Origin: a virus
Length of the DNA: 40,083 bases
IMG/VR virus record: IMGVR_UViG_3300032093_000322
Span: 1 to 40,083 of that record
Strand: one strand, 5' to 3'
Shown here: positions 2,757 to 38,152 of the stretch, piece after piece
Layout: each line of letters opens with the position of its first letter
Position numbering within the stretch: position 1 is the first letter of the stretch
Made by a program: the position numbers and the translations under genes
Notes under the pieces: generated by a model
Told to the model about the DNA's origin: nothing
What the model saw: only the letters and a program-made list of their open reading frames with translations
Databases searched by the model: none

Positions 2757-2955
2757 ATTTAGACCTATATTCCTCTCCACTCATAGTTGTATTAAGTAAA
2801 TAAATTTCTGGATAGACTAGATTGATATCTTGTTCTCTCGAATATACGATATAAGATTTATAATGGGTATTGACGGCTTCTTCTACGATAACATATATAT
2901 CATTAACAAAACCATCAAATTCAGATATTAATATATCGCCGGATTGATATGACAT
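2740..2955 (-). CDS. Hypothetical small beta-rich protein
   Basis: A 71-residue protein that I do not recognise. It is predicted to be mostly beta strands (SGDILISEFDGF, DIYVIVEEAV, YKSYIVYSRE, then NLVYPEIYLL) and might be a small barrel. Its ATG shares one base with the stop of the upstream leader protein gene (TAATG), a layout typical of translational coupling. Confidence 0.6.
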   Translation of the reverse strand: MSYQSGDILISEFDGFVNDIYVIVEEAVNTHYKSYIVYSREQDINLVYPEIYLLNTTMSGEEYRSKYGIKK

Positions 2956-3734
2956 TATTTCTTACCAAATAAAATTGTATCTTTTGGATCGGGCATTCTA
3001 TCTAATTCTATGTTTCTAAAACCTTTATGTAGTATTTTCAATGGACCCTGACTATCATTTATATTGAAATCTCTATTGATTTGATCAATGTAATTTTTAT
3101 AAAATTCGCTTCTTTCATTACCAACAAAATCTTTTATATTGTTCAGTTTTCTATAATTGAAAGCATACTCTGGATATTTTTTATTAATAAATTCTATAAA
3201 TTGTTCGCTACAAGAAACAACTCTTTCATTTGGCATATAAGGATTAGGAGGAAACACATCAGCTTTAAATTTTATTGGTGTATCGTAATCTAGAAAATTT
3301 GAAACCTTATCTTCAATATTTTGTTCTATAACTTTAAAGTTTTTTACTGGTACAAAAACATCTTCTAGTTGTCCATCTAAACCAACTAAATCATCATATC
3401 TACCATTTTGAATGGTTATTAACACATTATTTTCAGCGTCTGGTCCATTTTTTTGGATATTAGCATATGCTCTATTACGACCTTCATGATCTTTTACTTT
3501 ATAATATTGATTAACTACTAAAGATAAATCACCAGCTCTTGCATAATAGTAATCCATCTGTTGGACACTAAAACGCTTTTTTAAATAATCTCTCGTTTGT
3601 TGGTCTGTAGTTAATTTTAAAAAATCTGATGCCTTCATCCTTACAAGTACTTCATCATTTGTATCGCTTTCATTTAATACTTTATTTAATTCTTCTTTAA
3701 TAATATCCTTTAAATATGCTTTGTTGATTTTCAT
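2955..3734 (-). CDS. Leader-bearing protein A (MKIxK...IIxEEL N-terminus), probable late virion-associated protein
   Basis: 259 residues from the ATG at 3734, chosen over an upstream in-frame codon because GGAG lies 8 nt before it. The N-terminus MKINKAYLKDIIKEELNKVL is an amphipathic helix nearly identical in pattern to those of the proteins at 11717-12988 and 13010-13732, although the rest of the three proteins differs. Such a shared leader on unrelated bodies resembles T4 capsid-targeting sequences, which are cut by the prohead protease after [LI]-x-E. Here I12-K-E14 and L20-N-E22 fit that pattern. The body is mixed alpha/beta with no recognised domain. A candidate late promoter lies 20 nt upstream. 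Function unknown; virion packaging is inferred. Confidence 0.7.
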   Translation of the reverse strand: MKINKAYLKDIIKEELNKVLNESDTNDEVLVRMKASDFLKLTTDQQTRDYLKKRFSVQQMDYYYARAGDLSLVVNQYYKVKDHEGRNRAYANIQKNGPDAENNVLITIQNGRYDDLVGLDGQLEDVFVPVKNFKVIEQNIEDKVSNFLDYDTPIKFKADVFPPNPYMPNERVVSCSEQFIEFINKKYPEYAFNYRKLNNIKDFVGNERSEFYKNYIDQINRDFNINDSQGPLKILHKGFRNIELDRMPDPKDTILFGKK

Positions 3735-3754
3735 TATTATTTCTCCAAATAACA

Positions 3755-3764
3755 ATAAATAGTA
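3755..3764 (-). promoter_or_regulatory. Candidate late promoter motif TACTATTTAT
   Basis: An exact copy of the recurring 10-mer on the minus strand. It begins one base after the dUTPase stop codon and ends 20 nt before the ATG of leader protein A, so it would start a leader of only a dozen or so bases that still holds the GGAG site. Its position lets a late-type gene be expressed separately from the metabolic genes upstream. Confidence 0.55.
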
Positions 3765-4205
3765 TTATTTAGTGCCTGTGGAACCAAAACCGCCTTCTCC
3801 TCTAGCGTTTGCTGGTGTATCGAACTGTTCTACTAATTGTATTGCGCTTTCATTTACTCTATTAACTGTAAATTGTGCAATTTTATCATGATGTTTAATA
3901 GAAATAGTTTCATGTGTACTATTAAACATAATAATTCCCCAAGGACCAGTATAGTAGGCATCCACTAAACCAAGTGATACTAACTTTCCCTTACTAGACA
4001 TACCACTTCTACCGCGTATGTCGCAAGACCAACCGGGAGGAGGCATTATAGCCATACCTGTAGGAATAATTCTTGTTTGACCGGGAGATAGTAAAATTTC
4101 ATTATCTGGCGTGTCGGCATAAAGATCATATGCGGCATCTTCATTGTGTGCCTTAGAGGGCATTTTAGCAGTATCGGTTAATTTTTTGCATTGTAAAATA
4201 ATCAT
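3765..4205 (-). CDS. dut: dUTPase (deoxyuridine 5'-triphosphate nucleotidohydrolase)
   Basis: 146 residues, the normal length of trimeric dUTPases, with all five motifs: 1 (AAYDLYA), 2 (GRSGMSSKG), 3 (VDAYYTGPWGI), 4 (KIAQFTVNRV) and 5 (RGEGGFGSTG, the Gly-rich lid). It hydrolyses dUTP to dUMP, keeping uracil out of phage DNA and feeding dUMP to the ThyX encoded at 10099-10830. Motif 3 has Tyr-Tyr-Thr-Gly where many enzymes have D-Y-R/T-G. The gene follows dnaE by 9 nt with an AGGA site and should share its transcript. Confidence 0.95.
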   Translation of the reverse strand: MIILQCKKLTDTAKMPSKAHNEDAAYDLYADTPDNEILLSPGQTRIIPTGMAIMPPPGWSCDIRGRSGMSSKGKLVSLGLVDAYYTGPWGIIMFNSTHETISIKHHDKIAQFTVNRVNESAIQLVEQFDTPANARGEGGFGSTGTK

Positions 4206-4214
4206 TTTTATTTC

Positions 4215-7200
4215 CTATCCTAGTAATTTAAATGTATGTTTAATACTTCTTGTGCTCCAACCCCATTGTTCATCGTGCTCTAGTTTTGCTAGATATGGTC
4301 TATTTAACCACAACTTATCTTTTAATGGATCTACACCCCAGCATTTAATAGCTGTCATGGTATTAGTTGAATCAGTTACATTAAGTATCCAATAAATTTT
4401 ACCATTCTTAGTTTTCTTTTCTTCAATGTTTCTTGGAATGAACCAAACGACTTCTCCAAGTTCTTTTTCATAAGCACCAATTGCAGGAATATATTTCTCT
4501 TCTAGTCTTTTAACTATCTCAGGTGTCATAACCATACTAATTGGGTAAACTCCACTCAAAGAAACAATATTTTCTAGTTTTTCTTCATCTGTGAAATCAC
4601 CTTCAGGTTTATATTTTTCAATATTATCAGCAAATTTCTTTGGTGTTTTTGGACGATCAACAACGGCTGCAGACCAGAAATGTTTTAATCCAGTAAATCT
4701 ATTATCAACAAGTTTGCTTAATGCACCACTTCTTGTAAGAGCATCAAGCGCTTTCTTGTTTAGTTTACTATAGACTATATTTTCATTAAACAACAAATCG
4801 TCAATAGACTTAAATGGACGATGATTCATTATCTGTTCGATTGCTGTATCGCCAAGACCTTTAATAGAAGACAAAGGTTGAATTAGGGTTTTACCATCTA
4901 TATCAACTTCCCATTTCTTACCAGAACTATTAATATCTAATGTCTTGATAATAAAGTTATAGTTCTTGGCGAGGCTTATTGCTGCCTCTTTCCTATCTTC
5001 AGGTTCTTTATCCAAGAAGGCAGCAAGCCACTCAGCAGGGAAATAATGAAAGAGGTAAGCACACTGATAAGAAAGTATAGAATAACAAATAGCATGAGAA
5101 AGGTTAAAGCCGTATCCGCTGAAAAATTCCATAGTTTTCCAAAGATGTAATCCAGTACCTTCGGTGAGTCCTTTTTCTTTGCAGCCTGTGATAAACTTGC
5201 TGTAGAGCTTTTCTTTAACCTGAGACTCCTTTCCAGTGCCTTTTTTTGTGAGTACCTTTCGTAATTCGTTGCCTTCATCCAGCGAAATATCCTTGCCTAG
5301 TTTGTGCGCGAGAAGACTTAATTGTTCTTGAAAAACAATAAATCCATATGTTTCTTCTGTTACGTCTTTAACTAGTTCATGCACATAAGAAATAGACTCA
5401 GGATTTTTCTTTGCTTCAATATATTTTTCATGAACATTAGCAGATAATGGGCCGGGACGGAAAATAGACGTAATAGCGGCAATATCTACAATGTTTTTTG
5501 GTAACGCTTGCTTACAAAACTTCTGCGCTGCTGTATTTGTAAACTGAAATGTTCCACAGAAGTTACCTTCTTGAAAAACATATTTATAAACTGCTTCATC
5601 CTCAAGATTAATCTTGTTTGGATGTAGATTTTCATCATAGTACTTTTTCATATCTGCAAATGTAGGATTAGGAATATTATGATGACGCTTTAAAATATGC
5701 TCAACGCAAGTTTCAATCATTCTTAGAGAAGCTAGACCAAGGATATCAAACTTAATAAATCCAAGAGGTTCTAGATGACGAACCGTTTGTCCTTCAGTCC
5801 AAGGAGTTTGTGTTACACCACCGCTATTAATTAGCGGCATTTTTTGATCAAGATTATCTGCAAATAGCACACCGCCAGCGTGACGAGAAATACTGCGAAT
5901 TTGACCTTGTAGATTTTCTACATGGGTAGCAACATGTGGATATTTATTTAGATATTGTGTAAGACTTGGAGAATAATTCTTAAGCTCTTCCCAAGTTGGG
6001 TTATAAACACCAGCAGTTATCCCATGTTCTCTTTTAGCAACAGGGGTAGCTTCAAGCAACATTTTGCTTGTTACGTCATTAACTTCTGTAAAAGGTATTT
6101 CATACAGCTTGCTGATGTCTTTTACAAGCGAGCGAATTTGTAATGTATTATAGTTAGAAATTGGAACTACGGTGTTTTCACCGAATTCCTTGATAAACAT
6201 TTCTTTAACTTCCATTGGCTCTGCACAGTCATAATCAATATCTGGGAAGTCTTTGGCATTCTTACGAATAAATCTTGAGAACTGAAGTTTATATTTGATT
6301 GGATCAACCTGTGTAATTCCAAGCAAATATGACACAAGAGAACCAGCACCAGAACCACGACCAGATCCAACAAACTGATTATCAGATACCTTATCGCTAA
6401 TCTTTTTCATTGTAAGAAAGTATTTAGAAAAACCACGATCTTTAATCGTGTGCAATTCCTCTTTTAGTCTTTCAATGTAATTATTATCTTTGTATAGACC
6501 GGTATTCTTCAAAGCATCAACAGAAATTTTTGCCAAAGCGCTATCGGCAGTTTCGCCTTCTGGAATAACAAACGATGGAAGCTTGATAGCTGTGTCTGGG
6601 GTGTAATCTTCAATACGATTTTTTAGGATATCTGCGGTGCGTGCAATGCTTTCTTCTACTAGCTTATCGTCATAACTAAAACCTAGAGCACCAGAAAAAC
6701 GCTTATAGGTATCAAAAAGCTCATCGCCATTTTTGGGATACAGTTGATATTCCATCTCTTCTAATGTTCTTGGAAGAGCATCAATTTTAATTTCATCCTT
6801 ACGCTTGCCCATCCAACCAAGCAATTTATAAATCTCACGATCTTTCCACATATCAGGTGAAGGAAAGTGAGCATCACAAGTGCTAATAAGCTGGAAACCG
6901 TGAACCTTGGATAGTTCAATAATAAATTGATTTACAATGTGTTGCTCTTTATAGTTTGCCCACTGTAATTCACCATAAAAGCGATCACCAAAGATATCAA
7001 TCATATTTTTGACGGTATTTTCCATAGCTACATATACAGCTTTCTCACCTTTTTCAATATTGTCCCAATAGTCGTTAGACAGAACACCGCCAAGACATGC
7101 ACTAGAGGCTATCAAGCCTTCATTGTGCTTTTTTAGGCTATCATAATCCATACGTGGAAAACGATAAAAACTATCGCCACGATATGAATCACTAATAAGC

Positions 7201-7649
7201 TTAAAAAGATTATTTAATCCAGTTTGGTTTTGTGCAACCAGAACAAGGTGCGAACGACGGTTTAATGTCGAACGAATACCTTTTTTGGTTTCGCTTTCAT
7301 CTTCAACTACAAGTCCAACATCGTCGTCAACTTGTTTTGCAAGTTTTGCATCTTCTTTATGCTTAATGTGCTCTTGTTTCCATTGTTGGATAGAAGGATG
7401 AACATATGCTTCAATGCCATAAAGAACACGAAAATCGTTTTTGCCTTCTTCTTTCATTTTCTTAGCTTTCATAAAAGCATAAGAATAAGAATTCATGTTT
7501 CCATGTTCTGTAAATGCAAGACCATTTAGACCATTGCCATAAGCAAAATCCACATGCTCTTCTGGATATCCTAGTCCATCAAAGATACTAAAAGTGCTAT
7601 GGTTATGCAAAGAAACAAATGGAATACTAGGCTTTTTTCTTTCGCTCAT
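4215..7649 (-). CDS. dnaE: DNA polymerase III alpha subunit (C-family replicase)
   Basis: 1144 residues, close to bacterial DnaE length (about 1160). The N-terminal PHP domain (about 10-280) keeps metal-type residues: HNHSTFS (H15, H17), TEHGNM, YGIEAYV and TCDAHF. A Mn/Zn-dependent proofreading activity is therefore possible. The palm starts near VGSGRGSGAGSLVSYLLGI. The catalytic aspartates are in PDIDYD (D470, D472) with the third in IKFDILGL (D635). Downstream are the fingers, a helix-hairpin-helix-like part (IKGLGDTAIEQIM) and a C-terminal OB-like segment. This is likely the main replicase of the phage. No clamp loader, clamp or epsilon subunit is seen in the window, so host factors may be used. 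A second polymerase, a small PolA type, is encoded at 23234-24448. Confidence 0.96.
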   Translation of the reverse strand: MSERKKPSIPFVSLHNHSTFSIFDGLGYPEEHVDFAYGNGLNGLAFTEHGNMNSYSYAFMKAKKMKEEGKNDFRVLYGIEAYVHPSIQQWKQEHIKHKEDAKLAKQVDDDVGLVVEDESETKKGIRSTLNRRSHLVLVAQNQTGLNNLFKLISDSYRGDSFYRFPRMDYDSLKKHNEGLIASSACLGGVLSNDYWDNIEKGEKAVYVAMENTVKNMIDIFGDRFYGELQWANYKEQHIVNQFIIELSKVHGFQLISTCDAHFPSPDMWKDREIYKLLGWMGKRKDEIKIDALPRTLEEMEYQLYPKNGDELFDTYKRFSGALGFSYDDKLVEESIARTADILKNRIEDYTPDTAIKLPSFVIPEGETADSALAKISVDALKNTGLYKDNNYIERLKEELHTIKDRGFSKYFLTMKKISDKVSDNQFVGSGRGSGAGSLVSYLLGITQVDPIKYKLQFSRFIRKNAKDFPDIDYDCAEPMEVKEMFIKEFGENTVVPISNYNTLQIRSLVKDISKLYEIPFTEVNDVTSKMLLEATPVAKREHGITAGVYNPTWEELKNYSPSLTQYLNKYPHVATHVENLQGQIRSISRHAGGVLFADNLDQKMPLINSGGVTQTPWTEGQTVRHLEPLGFIKFDILGLASLRMIETCVEHILKRHHNIPNPTFADMKKYYDENLHPNKINLEDEAVYKYVFQEGNFCGTFQFTNTAAQKFCKQALPKNIVDIAAITSIFRPGPLSANVHEKYIEAKKNPESISYVHELVKDVTEETYGFIVFQEQLSLLAHKLGKDISLDEGNELRKVLTKKGTGKESQVKEKLYSKFITGCKEKGLTEGTGLHLWKTMEFFSGYGFNLSHAICYSILSYQCAYLFHYFPAEWLAAFLDKEPEDRKEAAISLAKNYNFIIKTLDINSSGKKWEVDIDGKTLIQPLSSIKGLGDTAIEQIMNHRPFKSIDDLLFNENIVYSKLNKKALDALTRSGALSKLVDNRFTGLKHFWSAAVVDRPKTPKKFADNIEKYKPEGDFTDEEKLENIVSLSGVYPISMVMTPEIVKRLEEKYIPAIGAYEKELGEVVWFIPRNIEEKKTKNGKIYWILNVTDSTNTMTAIKCWGVDPLKDKLWLNRPYLAKLEHDEQWGWSTRSIKHTFKLLG

Positions 7650-7650
7650 G

Positions 7651-7725
7651 TTATTTCCCGTTACAGTTACAGTAAGTCCAATCTTTGTGCCACCAACAAT
7701 CTTTATGATGAATATAAGGAATCAT
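7651..7725 (-). CDS. 24-residue Cys/His/Trp-rich microprotein
   Basis: A short frame reading MIPYIHHKDCWWHKDWTYCN then CNGK. It has a clear site (TTGGAG, 6 nt) before its ATG at 7725, and its stop lies one base before the dnaE ATG at 7649. Of 24 residues, 3 are Cys, 3 His and 3 Trp, far from what random AT-rich sequence encodes, and the HH, C, H, C, C spacing could hold a metal. It fills the only gap between two genes. It could be a small metal-binding protein or a leader peptide that couples translation into dnaE. No family is recognised. Confidence 0.5.
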   Translation of the reverse strand: MIPYIHHKDCWWHKDWTYCNCNGK

Positions 7726-7727
7726 AT

Positions 7728-7973
7728 TTACTCCAATGGATTAAGAATCTCATCAACCTTATCTAGTGAGGTCAACAAGTATTCTACATGATCGTTGATA
7801 TAAGTAAACTGCTTTCTTAATTCTTCATTCTTTGAATGTTCTGAGGCTACAAAAAAAGAATTAATAAAATCTTTTTGGTCTGGCGTTAAATCAAAATAAT
7901 AATTTGGAAAGTTAATCTTGCTTTTCAGAAACTGATTCAGATTGTTGTAGAATTTCTCGGCTTGGTTGTTCAT
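7728..7973 (-). CDS. Hypothetical small helical protein
   Basis: 81 residues, mainly helical and charged, ending in EYLLTSLDKVDEILNPLE; no family recognised. The ATG at 7973 lies inside the 3' end of the upstream gene (62-nt overlap) and is preceded by GAGGT at a suitable distance. The reading frame is intact and the stop is followed at once by the microprotein start. Confidence 0.6.
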   Translation of the reverse strand: MNNQAEKFYNNLNQFLKSKINFPNYYFDLTPDQKDFINSFFVASEHSKNEELRKQFTYINDHVEYLLTSLDKVDEILNPLE

Positions 7974-8811
7974 TTTCTAGATACCTCAGTTTTTTAAGTC
8001 TAGTAAAAAACCTGTAAGGCTTAATTAATTGTTTAGCATATTCACTACTAAGAAAGTTTCTATATGCATCCCAAGAACTAAGATCGTAATGCCAAGATAA
8101 TTCTACAACTTCTGATGTCTCTTTGTCAATACCTTTTAATGCGGTGGCTAAATCATAATTTTTAGTTTTTATTTTTCGTTTGTCATAATCTTCTATATCT
8201 CTTTTACGAAGTATATCTCTGCAAGAGAAATAGTCTTTTGCATTAAAAGAAAAATTCAAATGTAAATTGTCATGTACAGTTTTACCATCTTTACTAAATA
8301 ATATTTTTTGTTTATTAAACAATCTTGTTCTTATCTTCTTAGCTTCTTCAATTGAATTAAGGGAATATGGAAAAGAGCAATAGAATAATTCTGGTACTGT
8401 CCATTTAGTTAGGAAATATGAAGTACCATAGGCTATTTTAGCACCATACATTACGCTCCACCCAAGACAATCTCTTCTATCTCTATCTCTAGGATGAATT
8501 TGCACATAATAAATCGGTATATCTCTTCTAAGATTATATTTAGTTATATCTTTTTCTGCTGGGTCTATTATAAATTCACCAAGTCTTTTTTTGAGAAGCG
8601 GAATTGTACCAACGTGTGCAACAACCCATATTGTTTCACAGCCAACAGCAGCACATTCAAAAACAGCTTTTTCTACGGCTGTATAGTCTGGAGCGATTGG
8701 CATTAGACTATCGTGCCAAGGCATTTTATAAATGTCCTCTTGACCGGCCACTGGAACAATACCAGCTAAATGTAAAGCTTGTAATGGTTTAAATAAAGGT
8801 TCTGATAGCAT
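7912..8811 (-). CDS. Nucleotidyltransferase-like protein (GT-A/NTP-transferase-type N-terminus)
   Basis: 299 residues. The N-terminal 75 residues (LAGIVPVAGQEDIYKMPW, then DSLMPIAPDYTAVEKAV, CETIWVVAHVG) follow the layout of sugar-phosphate nucleotidyltransferases: a strand with G-I-[VI]-x-A-G, a later P-[IL] segment, a helix starting E-[KR]-A, then a strand and V-V loop. The diagnostic G-G-x-G-[TS]-R loop is degraded to A-G-Q-E-D, so catalytic activity is uncertain. The C-terminal half is charged and unrecognised. It overlaps both neighbours, the middle of a coupled set of unknown genes between thyX and dnaE. It might modify nucleotides or surface sugars, but the substrate cannot be read. 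Confidence 0.6.
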   Translation of the reverse strand: MLSEPLFKPLQALHLAGIVPVAGQEDIYKMPWHDSLMPIAPDYTAVEKAVFECAAVGCETIWVVAHVGTIPLLKKRLGEFIIDPAEKDITKYNLRRDIPIYYVQIHPRDRDRRDCLGWSVMYGAKIAYGTSYFLTKWTVPELFYCSFPYSLNSIEEAKKIRTRLFNKQKILFSKDGKTVHDNLHLNFSFNAKDYFSCRDILRKRDIEDYDKRKIKTKNYDLATALKGIDKETSEVVELSWHYDLSSWDAYRNFLSSEYAKQLIKPYRFFTRLKKLRYLENEQPSREILQQSESVSEKQD

Positions 8812-9571
8812 CTTGTTCGTGCTCTTGCCAATTCCAATTTAACATTTCTATATTAGGTTGTAAATCATGAAACATTATTTTACCATATGATACAACTTCT
8901 CTTCTATTATATCTAATATTAATTGGTCTGTGTTTAACAATGATGCCATTTTTTTTGCCTTTTATTCCAGCGTCTTTCATCATTTTTAAAACTTTGATTC
9001 TTACAATTCCTTGAGAATAATCCTCATGAAAAATATTTGTTGAATCTATTAAAGATACCGCCACACAATCTTTAGAATCGGGCCAATTATGCTGTCTAGC
9101 AGAATTATAAAAATATAATTCGGAAACTAATTCGTCATCGGATGTTAAGAGAGTGTGTTCATGATGCATACCACTTATTACATCAAAATAATCTTGAATT
9201 ATAACTTTATCATTTGTGTGTTCATGATTAGCTGGTAAACCTTCTACTTTATGAGAATCAGAAATATATAATTTATTATATTTAATTTTTAATAATAAAT
9301 TATCAACTGTAACTGCTTTAATAATATCGTCCTCTATTCTGACATTATCTATCTTATTAGCAAAAGGCATATAGCCAGTAAATGCTAGATTAAAAGCAAA
9401 CTTGTTCCAAAGCTCTATCCTATTTTCCCATCCCGGTGTTATATCAAAAGCTATTGGTTTTTGTAGTCTTGTATATATTACATGAGATTTATTATTGTAA
9501 CAATAAGACAGCGCATCTAGATCGCTACCAATAACTAATTTATCATATGATAGTTCTAAGATGCGCTGCAT
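8789..9571 (-). CDS. Hypothetical protein with Rossmann-like N-terminus
   Basis: 260 residues, not recognised. The start (DKLVIGSDLDALSYCYNN) looks like a beta-strand followed by a G-x-x-x-x-A loop and helix, as in dinucleotide-binding folds. The middle is rich in His (HKVEGLPANHEHT, GMHHEHT) and the C-terminus is basic. It overlaps the nucleotidyltransferase-like gene by 23 nt. Its 5' neighbour ends 1 nt before it, so these genes are likely translated in sequence. Fold is a guess from a short motif. Confidence 0.6.
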   Translation of the reverse strand: MQRILELSYDKLVIGSDLDALSYCYNNKSHVIYTRLQKPIAFDITPGWENRIELWNKFAFNLAFTGYMPFANKIDNVRIEDDIIKAVTVDNLLLKIKYNKLYISDSHKVEGLPANHEHTNDKVIIQDYFDVISGMHHEHTLLTSDDELVSELYFYNSARQHNWPDSKDCVAVSLIDSTNIFHEDYSQGIVRIKVLKMMKDAGIKGKKNGIIVKHRPINIRYNRREVVSYGKIMFHDLQPNIEMLNWNWQEHEQDAIRTFI

Positions 9572-9572
9572 G

Positions 9573-10106
9573 TTATTCCCAATAGACTACTTCGCCACGT
9601 TTATATTTTTTTAAGTTTACGTTTGCTTCATTTAGTTCTTCTGTGAAATGCTTATCATATATTTTAAAATAATTATTTGGTAATAAAGCAAAATTTCCTT
9701 GCTCTAATGCTAGCAAAGATAACGGTTTATGCTCTTGCGGGTACCGAGAGAATCCATCATTCCAATCAACAATTATTCCAGTGTGTCTAAATAAGTAATT
9801 TTCTTTAAGAACTTTGCCCGATAAACCATCAAGATATGGAAAATAATTGGTTGTAATTTCTGTGCCCATACAACCCCAAGGCTGTACATAGTTTAATTTA
9901 TCATTTACTTTATTATGATATAACGCAGATAGCGGTAATCCACTCCAATGAGCACCTGTTTGTAATTGTACATGCGTAAGCATTAGTTGACCAGACTTAC
10001 AAAATATACCGTGCAAAATGCCCTCTGTAAATCCAGAGGGCATTTCAGGACCAAGATAACTATTATCTACATAAACATAAAAATGATAGGGTAATGAACT
10101 ATGCAC
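9573..10106 (-). CDS. Hypothetical protein downstream of ThyX
   Basis: 177 residues if it starts at the GTG at 10106, which overlaps the last codons of thyX. A longer frame from 10223 would bury 125 nt in thyX and is less likely. The N-terminus (HFYVYVDNSYLGPEMPSGF) and the segment THVQLQTGAHWSGLPLSAL look like a folded beta-rich enzyme or binding protein, but I recognise no family. A 12-bp perfect hairpin lies within its first third (10016-10045). Confidence 0.55.
   Translation of the reverse strand: MHSSLPYHFYVYVDNSYLGPEMPSGFTEGILHGIFCKSGQLMLTHVQLQTGAHWSGLPLSALYHNKVNDKLNYVQPWGCMGTEITTNYFPYLDGLSGKVLKENYLFRHTGIIVDWNDGFSRYPQEHKPLSLLALEQGNFALLPNNYFKIYDKHFTEELNEANVNLKKYKRGEVVYWE
10016..10045 (-). 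repeat. Perfect 12-bp inverted repeat inside a coding region
   Basis: AAATGCCCTCTG and CAGAGGGCATTT flank a 6-nt loop. The stem is GC-rich against this background. On the minus strand it is followed by TTTTGCACGG, a weak T tract only. It could be an attenuator that lowers transcription after thyX. It also encodes MPSGF and TEGI, so chance plus coding constraint is possible. Confidence 0.5.
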
Positions 10107-10830
10107 TTTTATTCTCGTAATAAGCGTTAATTGTTTCTGGATAAAGCTTTTGGCAAATAGACAACATAGCCTTTGCAACAGCTTGTATCTCCCATTGTGC
10201 GCCTTCGTGCAAACGTAAATCAATAAACTTAAGAATATTATTTAGATTAGCACTTGCATAATATTCTGTATAAAGATTTTGTGGTAATACGCCACGCGCT
10301 TGCTCACGACAAACGCCTTTATTTAGCATCATATTATATATATCTAAAGACATTTTATGATATGCATCTACAAGACAATGCATATCTTCATCTTCGCATG
10401 GAATACATTTAAAAATATATCCATCGTCATATTTATAATCTCCAACTTCAGGATCTATTAATTGTTCAAGATTACTAGCTTGTCTATTATTAGAATGTTG
10501 TGTTCTAAAATGTTTTGGCTGATAAAACTCTAGACTTTCTGCGGTATATCTACGAGAGATTTCATTATAAGACCATGTACGATGTCTGTGATGCTGTGAA
10601 CGAATAAATAATGGTACCTTAACTCTAAAGGTAACAAAACAATGTTCAAGAACAGATGTATGGCGATGTTTAATCAAATAACGAATAAGTTTTTTATCTT
10701 TATCGTCTAATTGTTCTTTATGTACACCAAACGATACACGCGCACTATTAACAATAGTTAAATCATCGCCAACAAAATCCACAAGTTCTACTTTGCCAAT
10801 ATTATCATCATACAAATATACTGTTTCCAT
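10099..10830 (-). CDS. thyX: Flavin-dependent thymidylate synthase ThyX
   Basis: 243 residues, the usual size for ThyX. The signature R-H-R-x7-S is present in HHRHRTWSYNEISRRY, together with the upstream FRVKVPLFIRSQ strand and a C-terminal region LRLHEGAQWEIQAVAKAM. ThyX makes dTMP from dUMP using methylene-tetrahydrofolate, NADPH and FAD, with no sequence similarity to ThyA. In this genome dUMP would come from the dUTPase and the deaminase. The start at 10830 follows the GroES-like gene by 7 nt. Confidence 0.96.
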   Translation of the reverse strand: METVYLYDDNIGKVELVDFVGDDLTIVNSARVSFGVHKEQLDDKDKKLIRYLIKHRHTSVLEHCFVTFRVKVPLFIRSQHHRHRTWSYNEISRRYTAESLEFYQPKHFRTQHSNNRQASNLEQLIDPEVGDYKYDDGYIFKCIPCEDEDMHCLVDAYHKMSLDIYNMMLNKGVCREQARGVLPQNLYTEYYASANLNNILKFIDLRLHEGAQWEIQAVAKAMLSICQKLYPETINAYYENKSA

Positions 10831-10837
10831 TATTCAC

Positions 10838-11122
10838 CTATTCTAGAAAGATACCACAAACACTATGCTCTGGAACAAGATACATGAGCTTACCCATAAC
10901 TTTAACCTCTTCTACCATTTGCGATGGCACAAGAATAAGTTTATTTTTTAAACCATTGGTAGAATATTCTGAACCACCGCTGGCTTTAATAAGTCTCATT
11001 AATTTATGACTTTCAACCTTTTTGTAGTCTTCCGGTAAAAGGAAAGCAGAGGATTTCTCCTCTGCCTTTTGCTCTTCTACTGACTCTACCAAAAGATATT
11101 TATTCTTTGGATAGAATTCCAT
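10838..11122 (-). CDS. GroES-like co-chaperonin
   Basis: 94 residues, the length of GroES (97) and T4 gp31 (111). The order of segments fits the GroES barrel: an initial strand (NKYLLVESVEEQ), a loop with E-rich and LPEDY residues at the mobile-loop position, and a strand/loop with GLKNKLILVPSQM where GroES has its Gly-Asp-x-V strand. The C-terminus (YLVPEHSVCGIFLE) corresponds to the final dome/strand ending I-[LV]-A. Phage co-chaperonins partner with host GroEL to fold large capsid proteins. Sequence identity to GroES is low, so this rests on pattern and size. An 8-bp stem with a GAAA loop occurs in its coding sequence (11046-11065). Confidence 0.6.
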   Translation of the reverse strand: MEFYPKNKYLLVESVEEQKAEEKSSAFLLPEDYKKVESHKLMRLIKASGGSEYSTNGLKNKLILVPSQMVEEVKVMGKLMYLVPEHSVCGIFLE

Positions 11123-11131
11123 TTATGTCTC

Positions 11132-11395
11132 CTATGGCGCAGTTACAGTCTTGTATGCTTGCTCAAGCTGAGAGAAATCAGTTTGATCCTTCATAAGACG
11201 ATAAGCCTTCATGACGTTTTTCATTTCGTCTTTTGTTAGCCAACCGTTTTCTACATAGTTCTTACGCATATCTCGACGTTGTTCCTTGTATGGTTCCATA
11301 GCTTGCTCAATAGCGACCATAGCACGAACATAATCCTTGATACGCTCTTCCTTAGACTTTGGCTTATCAGTAACATTATCAACGCTGTATGACAT
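11132..11395 (-). CDS. Hypothetical small helical protein
   Basis: 87 residues, almost entirely helical and charged, with a conserved-looking core (MEPYKEQRRDMRKNY then VENGWLTKDEMKN). A strong GGAG site precedes the ATG. The arrangement of helix, Asn-Gly-Trp turn and helix loosely resembles small nucleoid-associated proteins of the GapR type, but I do not consider that established. It sits between two other small genes in the operon that begins at 11646. Confidence 0.6.
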   Translation of the reverse strand: MSYSVDNVTDKPKSKEERIKDYVRAMVAIEQAMEPYKEQRRDMRKNYVENGWLTKDEMKNVMKAYRLMKDQTDFSQLEQAYKTVTAP

Positions 11396-11403
11396 ATATT
11401 CTC

Positions 11404-11646
11404 CTAACGGTTAGATACTTTTTGGATTTCTCCAAGAAGGTAACGATACTTCTCTTCCAGTTTACCACGCTCTTGTGCTTCTTGCAAGTGATCCAACCTA
11501 ACTTTTATTCCTGAATCTTTATTATCGACTATAAGTTTACGGTAGAATCCAAAATCATCAGACATATAATATGATTCATGCGAAAATCGAATCTCATGAT
11601 TAGAACGCTTTGTTAATTCATTTTCAATAATTTTTAAATTAAACAT
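11404..11646 (-). CDS. Hypothetical protein, first gene after the promoter/terminator at 11.68 kb
   Basis: 80 residues starting MFNLKIIENELTKRSNHEI. I chose the ATG at 11646 because GGAGG lies 5 nt before it; a TTG 12 nt upstream would overlap that site. Not recognised. It is the first gene of a group (11646 to about 7.7 kb) that appears to begin from a sigma-70-like promoter in the preceding terminator hairpin. Confidence 0.65.
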   Translation of the reverse strand: MFNLKIIENELTKRSNHEIRFSHESYYMSDDFGFYRKLIVDNKDSGIKVRLDHLQEAQERGKLEEKYRYLLGEIQKVSNR

Positions 11647-11660
11647 AGCTTCCTCCAAAT

Positions 11661-11693
11661 AAAAACTGCACCATGCAATATAACATGGTGCAG
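11661..11693 (-). terminator. Rho-independent terminator after leader protein B
   Basis: Minus strand: CTGCACCATG, 8-nt loop, CATGGTGCAG, then TTTTTATTT. The 10-bp perfect stem and T tract lie 23 nt past the stop at 11717. The loop contains a -10-like TATATT (see promoter at 11677-11705). Confidence 0.85.
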
Positions 11694-11705
11694 TAATGTT
11701 GTAAA
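11677..11705 (-). promoter_or_regulatory. Sigma-70-like promoter nested in the terminator hairpin
   Basis: Minus strand TTTACA (11700-11705), 17-nt spacer, TATATT (11677-11682). Each box matches consensus at 5 of 6. The -10 lies in the hairpin loop, so a transcript starting about 7 nt on would begin in the right arm and could not form the terminator. It would express the 11646 gene and those after it. Inferred from sequence only. Confidence 0.55.
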
Positions 11706-11716
11706 GAAAAAATTAT

Positions 11717-12988
11717 TTATTTTTCTTCATCTGATATTTCTGAATCATCAAATTTGTCAGATTTTTTACCTAAAATAGATCTTAAAGATTTATTAAAATC
11801 ACTTAATTTATCATCTTCTGGTTCTGTTTCGGGCTTATCTATTTCTGGTGGCTCACCAGATGTTCTTTTAACAAATTCATCTTTACTGATTTTTTCAGTT
11901 TTCATGCTATTTTTAGAAAACTTTAAAGTTACAGTTTTAGGTTTTTGTTGTAATAATAAAGAATTTATAGCTTTATTGGTTTCTTCGGTCTTTTGAGAAC
12001 TAGTACCGTCTTTTTTAAATTCATCAAAACCTAAATCATTATAGGTAAAATAAGTTGCTGAAGCATCTATAATTTCATACTCTTCTGGATTGTCTTTAGA
12101 TGGTCTAGTAATACCTGTAATTATTAAAGATACAGGTACAAAACCATGATAATATCTTTCTTTTTTGATCTCTAATTTATCATCAACTATTTTTGATAAC
12201 TTTAAAGTTTTTTTATAATTATCAATACTTTCATTATAACTTTTTATAGCTTTTGGACTATCACCGTACTTTGTATCTCTTTCCCATTCTAAATGCTCAA
12301 TATATCTTTTAAAATCATCAAGATCATAGGAGTTTATATATTTTTGTTTATATTGTTCTGATTCTGCGCCAATTTTAAATCTCCAAAAAGCTCTTAAGAA
12401 AACTGATGGGTCATAATCTGTTAATTTTCTTGCTCTTTTTTCTGAATCGTATCTACCAGTTTTTATGGTACCTATATCTGGCTGCATTACTGGCGGCATC
12501 GGTACTGTTCTTTGTCCATATTCATCTTTATATTTATCTATTTCGTACCTTGGATCACCACCAGAACCTATTGTTGTACCATAATATTCATACTGTAATC
12601 CCGTTAAACCATTTAATTCAGGAACCATATCAATTATATTCTTTAAATAAGAATACATTACTCCTCTACTGTTGCCTCCATCTCCTATATTTACAACTTT
12701 TCTTGCAGCGGCAGTAAAGCGTTCCTCTTCTAATGTAGATTTATTAGAATCAAAATGGGTAACGGCACTAATAAATTCTTTTATCTGATCCGGGGTAAGA
12801 TTATATTCTCGTAATGTGCTGTTTTCTTGCTCATCGTCTAAAAGATAATAAAAGGTAATAGATTTATCTATTGGCTTTGGTTTAGCTTTAGGTTTAATTT
12901 TAGTAGGTGGTTTTTTTGGTGGTCCTTGAAGCTCTTTTATCAATTCTTCTAAAATTATTTTTTTTAAATATGATTTATGGATTTTCAT
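11717..12988 (-). CDS. Leader-bearing protein B (MKIxK...IIxEEL N-terminus)
   Basis: 423 residues. The N-terminus MKIHKSYLKKIILEELIKEL shares the leader of proteins A and C. It is followed by a Pro/Lys linker (residues 23-42) and a long body (about 45-360) with mixed helices and strands, then an acidic C-terminus ending DDSEISDEEK. No known domain or catalytic motif is apparent. It lies 21 nt after leader protein C and ends at a strong terminator, so the two form a two-gene late-type unit headed by the motif at 13766-13775. Leader cleavage after I12-L-E14 or I17-K-E19 is possible by analogy with T4 prohead protease sites. Function unknown. Confidence 0.7.
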   Translation of the reverse strand: MKIHKSYLKKIILEELIKELQGPPKKPPTKIKPKAKPKPIDKSITFYYLLDDEQENSTLREYNLTPDQIKEFISAVTHFDSNKSTLEEERFTAAARKVVNIGDGGNSRGVMYSYLKNIIDMVPELNGLTGLQYEYYGTTIGSGGDPRYEIDKYKDEYGQRTVPMPPVMQPDIGTIKTGRYDSEKRARKLTDYDPSVFLRAFWRFKIGAESEQYKQKYINSYDLDDFKRYIEHLEWERDTKYGDSPKAIKSYNESIDNYKKTLKLSKIVDDKLEIKKERYYHGFVPVSLIITGITRPSKDNPEEYEIIDASATYFTYNDLGFDEFKKDGTSSQKTEETNKAINSLLLQQKPKTVTLKFSKNSMKTEKISKDEFVKRTSGEPPEIDKPETEPEDDKLSDFNKSLRSILGKKSDKFDDSEISDEEK

Positions 12989-13009
12989 TATTTTTCTGAA
13001 GTTTATAAA

Positions 13010-13732
13010 CTATTCCGGTAATGCTAAAGAAGCAACTTTATTCTTTACAGCACCTTTTTTATAATCTGATATTAATATAGCCATTTTAGTTAATTGAAAT
13101 CCAAAATTTTCAGCATCTATCATAATTTGATCAGTTTGTTTAAGTTGTGATACATAAGAGGCATCTGAGCGAGCCATAAAACTTCCGGGTTGTACATATT
13201 TTTCATCTGCTGGTAGTTGTTCATCAAACTCATTCTTACCTGATTTATCGAAATTAGTAAATCTAGAGATATTAGCTTTTATTTTTTGTTTAATATCATT
13301 AATATCGATTTTTTTATCTTTATACATATTTTCAATTACTTTTTCAAATTCTGGTTTGTCCATGTTTTCTAAAACAGACTCAACAACATCTAGACCATAT
13401 GGTATGCTCATATATTCGTCTTTTTGACCGGGATAAACATATGCCCTATTAATACCACCTCGCGGTTTTAATCTAACAGATAAAGCGGTTTTAGCACTTG
13501 CAAATCGATCTCTTGCAGCTTCTTTTTGTCTCTCTCTTTCTTCTTCAGCGCTTTTTTCGGCAGCTATTTCTTCCTTTGATTTACCGGGTACAGGAACAAG
13601 TTTAGGAGCATTTGGATCTACGTATTCTGGCTCGGGGTCATCCAAGTAAGGAAGAGGAGCACCATATTCTTTAACTACTCGTTTTAATTCTTCATTAATA
13701 ACTTTATTTAAAAACTTTTTTGAAATTTTCAT
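13010..13732 (-). CDS. Leader-bearing protein C (MKIxK...VIxEEL N-terminus)
   Basis: 240 residues from the ATG at 13732, 6 nt after GGAG; an upstream in-frame TTG lies inside that site and was rejected. The leader MKISKKFLNKVINEELKRVV matches proteins A and B at M-K-I-x-K, L8, I12, E14-E15-L16. A Pro/Asp-rich linker follows (residues 23-60), then a Lys/Glu-rich helix (KSKEEIAAEKSAEEERERQ) and a mixed domain. First gene of the B/C unit. Its promoter-like motif lies inside a 13-bp hairpin after the RNR gene. Unknown function; a late, head-associated protein is the best inference. Confidence 0.7.
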   Translation of the reverse strand: MKISKKFLNKVINEELKRVVKEYGAPLPYLDDPEPEYVDPNAPKLVPVPGKSKEEIAAEKSAEEERERQKEAARDRFASAKTALSVRLKPRGGINRAYVYPGQKDEYMSIPYGLDVVESVLENMDKPEFEKVIENMYKDKKIDINDIKQKIKANISRFTNFDKSGKNEFDEQLPADEKYVQPGSFMARSDASYVSQLKQTDQIMIDAENFGFQLTKMAILISDYKKGAVKNKVASLALPE

Positions 13733-13750: not shown

Positions 13751-13783
13751 GCCTAAAATACTAATATAAATAGTATTTTAGGC
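13751..13783 (-). terminator. Hairpin after the RNR gene, terminator-like
   Basis: A perfect 13-bp inverted repeat, GCCTAAAATACTA / TAGTATTTTAGGC with a 7-nt loop, lies 19 nt after the RNR stop. On the minus strand ATTTTATT follows. The stem is AT-rich and the T tract imperfect, so strength is uncertain. It holds the late-type motif in its left arm and loop. Confidence 0.6.
13766..13775 (-). promoter_or_regulatory. Candidate late promoter motif TACTATTTAT, inside a hairpin
   Basis: Exact copy of the 10-mer. Five bases are in the left arm of the 13751-13783 hairpin and five in its loop, 33 nt before the ATG of leader protein C. A transcript starting just downstream would lack the left arm, as in the nested promoters at 11677-11705 and 20301-20330. 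Confidence 0.55.
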
Positions 13784-22403: not shown

Positions 22404-23234
22404 TTATAAACTTTGTATAAATTTGCTGTGTGCTACAACATAGCAATAATTAGTTTGATTTTTAGTTGAATATATTCTATATGATATTTTTGTATTGTCA
22501 ACTGCTTTATTTTTTAGTTGTTCTTTTATTACTTTAAATAGTTTGTTATCTGTTTTTAACACATTCTCATTTATGAAAAAATTATAACATTTATCATTTA
22601 TATTTTTAATATCAAAAAACATTTTTTCAATATTATTTTCTAGATCATACATACCAAAAGTAGAAATCCTAGATATGTCACTAGGTGGAAAATAATTTTC
22701 TATAATAGAATTCAAACTTTTTAATGAATTTATAGCACTATATGTTTTATAAATTAAATTCAAATGTTCTTCATACCAATCAGCAATTGGTATATCTCCC
22801 AAAAAAGTTTCTAATGTTTTAGAATCAAATAAAAATATTTCTTTAAAGACGCCAGATCTAGCATATTCTTGAAAAACATTAAATACAACTTTGTTTATTA
22901 ACAAACTTTCATTTCTTAAATAATCAATATCGGGTATAAGATATAATATAGATATATTTTTTTGTTTTATTTGTTTTAAAATTCTCAATGAAGCAGAAAC
23001 AACATCGCAATCACCGCTTGTAATAAAAAGAATATCATCACTAATATCAGAAAAAAATTCTGTCATATCTGGACAGTTTTTTTCGTATTCTTCGGGTGTC
23101 TTTTCTGTCTGTAAAGAAAAACAATTTTTACCGTCAATATTTTTATCAATTAATTTTACTTTGAAATTTTCATTATTTTCAAATAGCTCACCTATATCAC
23201 ATGATTTATTTCCTAAACAAATAATAGTTTGCAT
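22404..23234 (-). CDS. Divergent protein with tubulin/FtsZ-like pattern (speculative)
   Basis: 276 residues, no certain family. The N-terminus (TIICLGNKSCDIGELF) resembles the first strand and G-x-G-x-x-[GC]-N loop of FtsZ. Residues 66-100 (DDILFITSGDCDVVSASL then ILKQIKQKNISILYLIP) parallel FtsZ's strand, glycine signature loop and following helix and strand. The GGGTG[ST]G signature is degraded to T-S-G-D-C-D-V, so GTP binding is doubtful. A later YARSG/IPIADWYEEHLN part fits the region after the nucleotide site. Phage tubulins (PhuZ) centre DNA; that role is not supported by anything else here. Its ATG shares a base with the PolA stop (TAATG), so the two are coupled. Confidence 0.5.
   Translation of the reverse strand: MQTIICLGNKSCDIGELFENNENFKVKLIDKNIDGKNCFSLQTEKTPEEYEKNCPDMTEFFSDISDDILFITSGDCDVVSASLRILKQIKQKNISILYLIPDIDYLRNESLLINKVVFNVFQEYARSGVFKEIFLFDSKTLETFLGDIPIADWYEEHLNLIYKTYSAINSLKSLNSIIENYFPPSDISRISTFGMYDLENNIEKMFFDIKNINDKCYNFFINENVLKTDNKLFKVIKEQLKNKAVDNTKISYRIYSTKNQTNYCYVVAHSKFIQSL
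22474..22501 (-). promoter_or_regulatory. Possible sigma-70 promoter upstream of SSB
   Basis: Minus strand TTGACA (22496-22501), 16-nt spacer, TAGAAT (22474-22479), within the 3' end of the 22404-23234 gene. It would supply SSB about 150 nt downstream. Spacing is one short of ideal; the hexamers are good. Confidence 0.45.
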
Positions 23235-35351: not shown

Positions 35352-38090
35352 TTAATCTTCAAAACTTGCACCAGTAGGAGCAATTACGAAATCTATTGCT
35401 ATATATTCGATTGCGCGAGCTGGCTTTAACAATACTTTAGCATAAACAACATTTCTATCAATTAAATCAGGAGTAGTAGTAGTTTCATCTAATACTAATC
35501 TATAATCAGTTAAACCAAAACCAGCTTTTACACTAGCTAAGAACGGTTCTGCTTGATTCAAGAAACGTTTCCAAGTAACTTGAGTGTTTTGATCAAACAA
35601 AACAGTAGCAGCAAATCTGCTGATTTCTTTTTTAACATAGATCATCAAACGACGAACATTAATGCGGTCAAGGGCGCTTGGTGTTACTTGTAAAGTCTTT
35701 TGACCAAATATTACAATTCCTTCTGCGGGGAATGTTGCAATAGGATTAATGTTAGCATCGTAAAGTGTATCACGATCTTTAGAGGTTAATCTAAGAGCAG
35801 TTTGCAATACTGGTATACCAGCTGCACCGTTTGATAAACCACCGCGATTAAACCCTGCTGGTGCAAACCATAGCTCTGTAGAACGTTGTGCGCTTGAGAA
35901 TGTGCCCAAGGCTGCAATAGAAGGTGGTAACCAAACTTTATTACCAGTAGCAGTATCTTGTGCTAATACCCAAGGGAAGAAGGCACAACCATAGCTGCTA
36001 TTAATAGATCTTTGTTTTAAGTTACTTACAACAGTGCTAACCAATGGCTTAATACGAGGTGTTTCTGGGTCATAATCACCTTTAAGATCGATTATTGCTA
36101 ATGCATCACCACGGGCTTCGCACTTTTCTAACATTAGGGATGTTAAACCTTCATTTTCAATACCGGGAGCAGTAAGTAGGTTCATTTCTACTACCTCTGG
36201 ATCTGCAACACTCTCTATAGCTACTTTAATGCTATTATAGGCGTAGTTATTAATGTCTGTAGCGCCAGTTGGCAATTTGCGTTTGCAGAATGGATCTTTT
36301 TCTACTATGTCAACACCATCTGAACCACCAACTAATGGTAACACAAACTTATTAAATTTATTCAATACAGCATTAGATAAGCTATAAGAAGAACTGACAG
36401 CAGTTAAAGCTGAACCGGAATATCTATTACCTTCTGCCCAAGCAGCGTATTGATCATTAGAGCCAGTTAGTTTTACATCATCCAAACTAAACATAAATGA
36501 ATATTTAGATGTGGTAGAGGGTGCTGATGGGAAATTTACATGTTTTTCTTTTAATAGATCACGTAAATCTTCGTTGTATCTTCTTGTATCAGAAACGTTT
36601 GTTTTTAAACCCCAATAAATATCTAACAATGAAGGAGAAAGACTTTCTTGGCTAGATTCTAACAAAGGAATTTTTGGTAATGCAAAACTAGCAGTATAAG
36701 CATTATTACCAGTAACGGCAGTATTAATGAAACCAAATGCAGCAACATTAGAACCGTTATTACCGGCAACTGGTGAAACGTTATATTGTATTGGACCATA
36801 GAAACCAAATGGTAATAACGCTTGATCTAACAATCCAGCTTCTAAGTCAGCGTTTAATTCAATGCGTATATACTTGGAAAGATTATTGTATGTTCCATAT
36901 TCTACAAATGCTTTTTTAGTATAATCCCAAGTGGTATATTTATCACCAATACGTTTTGTTATAAAGTTTGGAGAATTAGCGTCAAGAGACAAACCAGTAA
37001 ATCTTTCAACATATACTGGTGAATTGTCTCTATCATCTATTTTTCTAATGCCTAATGTAAATGTACCATATTTATAAAACAAGTTTGGTGATTCTTTGAC
37101 ATCTTCAATAACTATCTTTAAGTTTTGTGCATTCCATTCACCTTCAGATAGTGCCTTTACTTTAAATAATTTTTGTACAGGGTATTCGCCAGTGCTGCTA
37201 GCAACGAATGACGAACTTAATCCAGTATGTTGCGAGACAACCCAACCACTTTCGGCAGTGGTAGCACCTTGTTTGTGATCAGAGAACTCTACGCTGCCAG
37301 TAACTAATTTAACTATAATACCAGCAACATTACTGGTAGTGTAGTTATTTAAGTTTTCTTTTACCCAAGTATAATAGGTATCACCTAAGAAATAATTTTT
37401 TACATTAGAACTTAAATTAGAGTTAGTAGCAACAGGGTTTGTATTTAATACACTACGGATATATCTCTTTTCACCTTCAGCGAAATTAATACTAGCGGTT
37501 TCGCTTTGTTGTGGATGAATTCTAAATTGTAAGTTTGGACCTTCCGCTCTAATCCAATTACCAACTACGTTAGTTAATTCAGATGTTCCATTTAAAGGTA
37601 AGCCACTAAGACCAACAGAATTTGTAGAGTAAATTATTGCAGCTAATGCGGCGCTGGCAGTGCCATTAGTTACAAAGCTATTTGTAGAGCTTTGTGAAAT
37701 ATCCATTACAAACAAACCATAAGCATCGCCGTGTTCCCAACCAGCCTTACCATCTGTATCACGATTGTCGTTTTCAAAACCACCTAAACGAACAAATGTT
37801 ACAGGATTAGAGTTTCTTAAGTAAGCTTGTGCGGCATAGGCACCATAAGTAGCACCCAAACGATTGCCTTCGCGCCAAACATCGCCTACTTGTCCACCAG
37901 CTACTGGTTCACCAAATACTTCAACAAAGTCTGAGTAACTTTGTACTTGTACTGGACGCATTATTGGTCCACGTAGAGAACGACCAATGATTACTGGTCC
38001 CATAGCTGCTGGTAATACTGGCAACTGTGAATTATCTATTTCATTTACAAATACGCCGGGGGATACAAATCTAAACTTGGACACTGACAT
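35352..38090 (-). CDS. Tail sheath protein, T4 gp18-like
   Basis: 912 residues, larger than T4 gp18 (659). The N-terminus (FVSPGVFVNEIDNSQLPVLP, GPVIIGRSLRGPIMRPVQV) is the sheath start, and the C-terminal domain (RINVRRLMIYVKKEISRFAA, WKRFLNQAEPFL, TTTPDLIDRNVVYAKV) is the conserved part that contacts the tube. The extra length lies mainly in the central Ser/Thr/Asn-rich region (about 150-540), probably surface domains. It drives tail contraction. An exact late motif is 52 nt upstream. Confidence 0.96.
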   Translation of the reverse strand: MSVSKFRFVSPGVFVNEIDNSQLPVLPAAMGPVIIGRSLRGPIMRPVQVQSYSDFVEVFGEPVAGGQVGDVWREGNRLGATYGAYAAQAYLRNSNPVTFVRLGGFENDNRDTDGKAGWEHGDAYGLFVMDISQSSTNSFVTNGTASAALAAIIYSTNSVGLSGLPLNGTSELTNVVGNWIRAEGPNLQFRIHPQQSETASINFAEGEKRYIRSVLNTNPVATNSNLSSNVKNYFLGDTYYTWVKENLNNYTTSNVAGIIVKLVTGSVEFSDHKQGATTAESGWVVSQHTGLSSSFVASSTGEYPVQKLFKVKALSEGEWNAQNLKIVIEDVKESPNLFYKYGTFTLGIRKIDDRDNSPVYVERFTGLSLDANSPNFITKRIGDKYTTWDYTKKAFVEYGTYNNLSKYIRIELNADLEAGLLDQALLPFGFYGPIQYNVSPVAGNNGSNVAAFGFINTAVTGNNAYTASFALPKIPLLESSQESLSPSLLDIYWGLKTNVSDTRRYNEDLRDLLKEKHVNFPSAPSTTSKYSFMFSLDDVKLTGSNDQYAAWAEGNRYSGSALTAVSSSYSLSNAVLNKFNKFVLPLVGGSDGVDIVEKDPFCKRKLPTGATDINNYAYNSIKVAIESVADPEVVEMNLLTAPGIENEGLTSLMLEKCEARGDALAIIDLKGDYDPETPRIKPLVSTVVSNLKQRSINSSYGCAFFPWVLAQDTATGNKVWLPPSIAALGTFSSAQRSTELWFAPAGFNRGGLSNGAAGIPVLQTALRLTSKDRDTLYDANINPIATFPAEGIVIFGQKTLQVTPSALDRINVRRLMIYVKKEISRFAATVLFDQNTQVTWKRFLNQAEPFLASVKAGFGLTDYRLVLDETTTTPDLIDRNVVYAKVLLKPARAIEYIAIDFVIAPTGASFED

Positions 38091-38142: not shown

Positions 38143-38152
38143 ATAAATAGTA
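38143..38152 (-). promoter_or_regulatory. Candidate late promoter motif TACTATTTAT before the sheath
   Basis: An exact copy of the 10-mer in the 95-nt gap after the 171-residue neck-type gene, and 52 nt before the sheath ATG. The sequence continues AATAAGTA, making an imperfect inverted repeat. A small CTACAA/TTGTAG hairpin lies between it and the ribosome site. Confidence 0.55.

Follow-up and report, generated by a model that had tools for sequence, protein, structure and literature searches.

In bacteriophage T4, a capsid-targeting sequence (CTS) is an N-terminal propeptide of 10-19 residues that is cut by gp21 and carried by divergent internal proteins. Targeting depends mainly on residues 4 and 7 of the CTS and processing on residues 8 and 10, and the internal proteins that bear it are diverse and are injected (PMC9026906; PMC3012670). 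Two paralogues with an identical N-terminus are known from giant phages (PMC5694885), and DarB of phage P1, the carrier of an N-terminal packaging signal, is a virion anti-restriction protein (PMC9024508). Here we analysed an N-terminal leader found on three proteins, designated A, B and C, that are encoded by a 40,083-base virus fragment from IMG/VR (the window, meaning this whole stretch). We consider it likely, from sequence comparisons, that this leader is a lineage-specific CTS of the T4 kind and is removed by a prohead protease. The three genes and their leaders are as follows.

Protein A: 2955..3734, minus strand (3734->2955), leader-tagged orphan of 259 residues
Leader of protein A: residues 1-22, 3734-3669, minus strand, predicted cut LNE22|S23
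Protein B: 11717..12988, minus strand (12988->11717), leader-tagged orphan of 423 residues
Leader of protein B: about residues 1-19/22, minus strand, predicted cut IKE19|L20 or ILE14|E15
Protein C: 13010..13732, minus strand (13732->13010), leader-tagged orphan of 240 residues
Leader of protein C: residues 1-22, minus strand, predicted cut VKE22|Y23

The N-termini read MKINKAYLKDIIKEELNKVLNE|S for A, MKIHKSYLKKIILEELIKELQG|P for B and MKISKKFLNKVINEELKRVVKE|Y for C. A sequence-only reading of this DNA had described three unrelated proteins that share the start M-K-I-x-K-x-[YF]-L-x-x-[IV]-I-x-E-E-L and then diverge. The coordinates and the consensus were borne out, with one amendment, namely that the minus strand carries all three genes; the consensus fits A, B and C alike. 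Also as described, an [LIV]-x-E ends at residue 14 in each of them (IKE, ILE and INE, respectively), and a second one follows at residue 22 in A (LNE|S), at 19 in B (IKE|L) and at 22 in C (VKE|Y). A DNA pattern for the tag gave exactly three matches in the window, namely A, B and C, and none in 100 shuffles. The three proteins are otherwise unrelated. None of the bodies has a Pfam family over the cut-off or a strong PHROG match. No relatives of body A were found in cultured phages or viral contigs, none of bodies B and C in viral contigs, and none of any of the three among the leader loci fetched at the time of the search. The weak PHROG and Pfam matches of these bodies were set aside, as were the GKAP and 'host range' matches of C, which were not convincing. 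AlphaFold models of A and B, made without relatives, had predicted local distance difference test (pLDDT) scores of 34 and 36 (single-sequence, unusable folds) and drew only a low-confidence helix from residue 4/5 to 20/22.

The main set for further comparison consisted of 284 non-redundant leader proteins, drawn from IMG/VR and from bacterial and archaeal loci, plus the window. Columns 1-15 were strongly conserved, Glu was the commonest residue at 21-22 and conservation stopped past residue 22; only residues 1 to about 15-22 were common to the set. The bodies behind the leader were highly varied: 275 of them fell into 237 BLAST clusters, 214 of which were singletons, and 66 loci held two or more different leader-tagged bodies. 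Among 106 tagged proteins checked, only single matches stood out, to pentapeptide repeats, a GNAT domain and DUF5824. Cargo with pentapeptide repeats or a GNAT domain is compatible with anti-host roles but is not evidence for them.

The end of the leader is enriched for sites of the gp21 type. An [LIV]-x-E with its Glu (P1) at residues 17-26 was present in 171 of the 284 proteins (60%), compared with 70.8±6.7 (maximum 94) in 1000 local shuffles of these proteins over residues 16-27. The stricter [LIV]xE[AGS] was found at these residues in 76 of 284 (shuffled, 16±3.8; maximum 32). The residue after the Glu (P1') was enriched for A and G, the sites peaked at residue 21/22, and ten-residue windows further downstream held 38-50 sites. 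The enrichment was replicated with 41 leaders outside the first set, which had 23 sites vs 8.8±2.2 when shuffled. Presence of the downstream site varied with residue 15: it was found in 158 of 241 leaders with E15 and in 13 of 43 with A, S or T at this place (p=3e-5), and A/S/T15 makes residues 12-15 read I-x-E|A, like the FIAE|A of T4. Within the RQL[RK] leader subtype the corresponding fractions were 40/44 and 4/19 (p=9e-8), and comparison inside shared contigs also showed the swap (p=3e-6); the p-values assume that the proteins are independent. A leader apparently requires a single good site, which can stand at one or the other of two positions, and no other single argument for processing is as strong as this swap.

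Most leader records also carry the matching protease. PF03420 (the gp21/S77 prohead protease) was detected in 24 of the 36, among them every one of the nine longer than 140 kb, and in 1 of 44 random contigs (p=1.5e-10), a comparison weakened somewhat by the random contigs (at least 20 kb) being on average shorter than the leader records. A search of 20 leader records for an HK97-type (S78) protease found none. Eleven of the 12 leader records without S77 were also without the T4 capsid gene (gp23); in the remaining one (G032) the capsid gene is cut by the contig end, and in two others (G006 and G014) a T4 baseplate gene lies at the very contig end. The head locus therefore simply falls outside those contigs. 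The window was anchored to head genes through its tail sheath gene.

Tail sheath protein: 35352..38090, minus strand, 100% identical to a protein in contig L157

Contig L157, which overlaps the window and belongs to the same virus, runs on upstream of the sheath gene into the head locus, which encodes a 133-residue protein with a diverged leader, a scaffold and a gp23-type capsid protein. The latter has LLRE|ATTMAGG at the position of FLTE|AEIGG in T4 gp23. Of the 44 capsid proteins aligned, 38 have [L/I/V]-x-E there, and in 36 the next residue is A, S or T. In L162, whose sheath is 62% identical, the S77 protease adjoins the scaffold and capsid genes. The protease linkage and the corresponding capsid-protein site of the same virus support the earlier suggestion that the leader sites resemble those of the T4 prohead protease. 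The suggestion that the leader is a capsid-targeting tag is likewise strengthened by its occurrence on unrelated bodies, by the gp21-type site at its end and by the two-position swap.

Other features of head and leader loci were also recorded. A conserved protein of 129-157 residues adjoins gp21 (L157:1613-2014, L162:3701-4099 and most head loci L237-L258). Its start, M[KN]KxELKxxIKPLxKECIxEVLIEEG, is of a diverged leader type that contains a proline and ends [LIF]-x-E-[ED]-G, and the protein is a candidate prohead core protein. Two tandem gp23-type capsid genes, both with the LRE|A site, are present at L243:9111 and 11083. A second leader type, M[RK]LLREYIRxLLxE, is carried by different proteins in L057, where ORFs (open reading frames) start MRLLREYIREMLTES and MKLLREYIRELLKEE; it resembles the N-terminus of the protease itself, gp21 at L162:1330-1941 (MSKELLREWYELC).

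A scan of IMG/VR with M-K-I-x-K-x-x-L-x-x-[IV]-I-x-E-E returned at least 120 stretches, as many as 4 matches lying within 9 kb, and the codon-reversed control pattern had 0 matches there. A looser peptide search of those loci yielded 258 leader ORFs among the matches listed. Often 5-8 short leader genes follow one another in tandem, with MKITKxQLxxIIKEE at the start of each. When no more than two mismatches were allowed, the highest copy numbers in whole records were 27 (289 kb) and 24 (242 kb), the backward-pattern control giving 0-1, and all leaders were on the prohead protease strand in 12 of 12 large records. Random viral contigs totalling 1.05 Mb contained 0 leader ORFs. Among bacterial and archaeal genomes only 11 stretches had the leader, all in metagenome-assembled genomes and several with many copies; these are probably phage contigs. 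Many leader genes lie on contigs of 101 kb and 306 kb in GTDB bins labelled Halobacteriovorax and Methylococcaceae. The leader contigs in GTDB bins listed below are probably phage contigs binned into bacterial genomes.

PBIO01000025: leader contig, loci L125/L127
NHDW01000006: leader contig, loci L124/L129/L131

If the leader is a CTS, its amphipathic helix of 14-22 residues would dock the cargo on the prohead core during head assembly. The gp21-type (S77) protease would then cut past the Glu of [L/I/V]-x-E at the leader end and free the cargo in the head, from which it would probably be ejected together with the DNA. We infer core docking, cleavage and packaging of the tagged proteins from their sequences; injection and an anti-host function are proposed by analogy only.

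Several observations weigh against this reading. The window has no protease, its contig ending before the head locus, and its protease is presumed from L162, L165 and L166, relatives whose sheath is 49-62% identical. In the 41 new leaders the site swap had the same direction and was not significant (17/26 vs 6/15, p=0.19). Neither A/S/T15 nor an [LIVMF]xE at 17-30 is present in 50 of 275 leader proteins (about 18%), and protein B has weak sites only. An [LIV]xE at 17-26 also occurs in 27% of the non-leader ORFs of the same contigs, and the site alone is thus not diagnostic. Finally, the exact leader is absent from T4, phiKZ, P1, lambda, P-SSM2, P-HM2, HTVC008M, RM378, Mel-JY01 and Flavobacterium immuto; the sole P-SSM2 match contains a stop. 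A tblastn search of cultured phages with the 22-residue consensus leader returned nothing, for which low-complexity masking is a possible cause. Four near matches to the leader were found in an uncultured 484-kb phage.

The tagged proteins could instead be accessory parts of the prohead core or scaffold, which act in assembly and are then degraded or lost and not injected. This would suit the protein that starts MKKxELKxxIKPLxKECxxEVLIEEG and lies, in many phages, between the gp21 protease and the scaffold gene, the place of the T4 core genes; in some phages true leaders, too, stand on either side of the protease. Most tagged genes, however, are at a distance from the head locus, in tandem arrays that vary, and their bodies are orphans, which is more like accessory cargo than an essential core, and we regard such a core role as rather unlikely. 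Less probable still is a leader that serves for localisation or docking and has no link to the head (for a membrane, a replication compartment or a host target), with Glu sites that are a by-product of a Lys/Glu/Leu-rich helix. By composition the leader is an amphipathic helix, helices rich in K, E, L and I yield [LIV]xE by chance, and the frequency of this motif at the same place in other ORFs fits such an origin; but local shuffles of the same composition give under half of the observed sites, and chance would leave the P1' enrichment for A and G, the mutual replacement of the two sites and the strong S77 linkage to be accounted for. That the shared start reflects a recent gene duplication, or a recombination or translation-initiation DNA cassette with no peptide function, as the tandem arrays with similar starts might suggest, is highly improbable, given that leader genes of one contig have DNA identity only over codons 1-15/16 and the ribosome-binding site, with background levels upstream of that site and past about codon 16, that third positions in the leaders of a single contig agree only slightly better than those in leaders from different contigs, and that the bodies are unrelated. 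DNA-level duplication is thus disfavoured as the cause of the shared leader, and this identity profile argues that selection on the peptide, not recent copying, keeps it.

The sequence-only reading also held that each tagged gene lies in a unit headed by a late motif, which we took to be TACTATTTAT. There are 4 exact copies in the window, every one intergenic and on the gene strand, and the 9-mer core of the motif was found 4 times vs 1.4 expected.

3755..3764, minus strand: TACTATTTAT, late-promoter candidate, 20 nt upstream of A
13766..13775, minus strand: TACTATTTAT, late-promoter candidate, upstream of the C-B unit
38143..38152, minus strand: TACTATTTAT, upstream of the tail sheath gene, where related contigs have it as well
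893-902 of the window: TACTATTTAT, fourth exact copy

With copies upstream of A and of C, and with B starting 21 nt after C, the units of A and of C-B are headed by the motif as claimed. The copy at 13766..13775 sits in an inverted repeat and may also be a terminator of the upstream gene. The motif precedes the sheath gene in six related contigs too (L157, L158, L161, L162, L163 and L166), and in L166 also a leader gene; its position before the sheath gene ties it to structural (late) genes. The tail sheath gene is among several structural genes that have WACTATTTAT upstream, and WACTATTTAT/TACTATTTAT is a candidate late promoter of this lineage. The canonical T4 motif TATAAATA, from which TACTATTTAT differs, was near background with one mismatch, which lends it no support as the late motif.

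The window also carries T4-type tail genes, with T4_baseplate detected by Pfam. Other translations read as a DnaE-type polymerase, ThyX, dUTPase, IMP dehydrogenase and ribonucleotide reductase, and DnaE was found by tblastn as well. The same phage has both a PolA-like fragment and a DnaE-type polymerase III alpha subunit.

4215-7649 of the window: DnaE-type polymerase III alpha subunit
23234-24448 of the window: PolA-like polymerase fragment, read from translation only

We lean, with some reserve, towards the broader view that a large, mostly uncultured T4-like lineage loads up to dozens of different, fast-changing proteins per phage by means of a dedicated, interchangeable head-export tag for delivery to the host, and would so have an effector repertoire far beyond that of T4. 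If this is true, the tag marks orphan phage proteins by the hundred as predicted virion cargo, which would most likely act early against the host or its defences. What these phages package and probably inject could then be listed from sequence alone, and the tag would be a simple means of mining metagenomes for injected phage proteins. The new CTS sequences, with their two alternative processing sites, would be material for studying how prohead cores recognise cargo.

The closest described system is that of T4. Like the CTS of IPI, IPII, IPIII and Alt, the leader is a short propeptide that starts with M-K, is common to unrelated proteins and has [L/I]-x-E before a small residue, and the leader-bearing phages have a gp21/S77 protease and a gp23 capsid protein as T4 does. 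It differs in sequence and in length (14 or about 22 residues, compared with 10 in the IPIII minimum), in having two alternative cut positions and in the number of carriers, which reaches 27 in one leader-bearing phage vs a handful in T4. Set beside the T4 CTS MKTYQEFIAE|A, as read from NC_000866, the M-K start is common and one class of leaders has the I-x-E|A end, whereas the middle and the length differ; the peptide is too short for a homology test. The propeptides of the phiKZ and SPN3US head and ejection proteins are also N-terminal and removed after Glu by a gp21-related protease, but are mostly longer than 100 residues and have an A/S-x-E type motif (PMC5694885). Nor are these propeptides a short tag common to dozens of unrelated bodies, and phiKZ has no match to the leader. 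In P1, an N-terminal DarB signal of fewer than 30 residues suffices for packaging of a reporter, although its authors found no consensus among Dar N-termini (PMC9024508), and P1 is likewise without a leader match. In the titles and abstracts of the literature on CTS in marine or jumbo phages, subscription papers being outside the scope, we met no description of the MKITK leader. A CTS is a known kind of element; what appears to be new is the sequence of this leader, its design with two sites and how many carriers one phage has.

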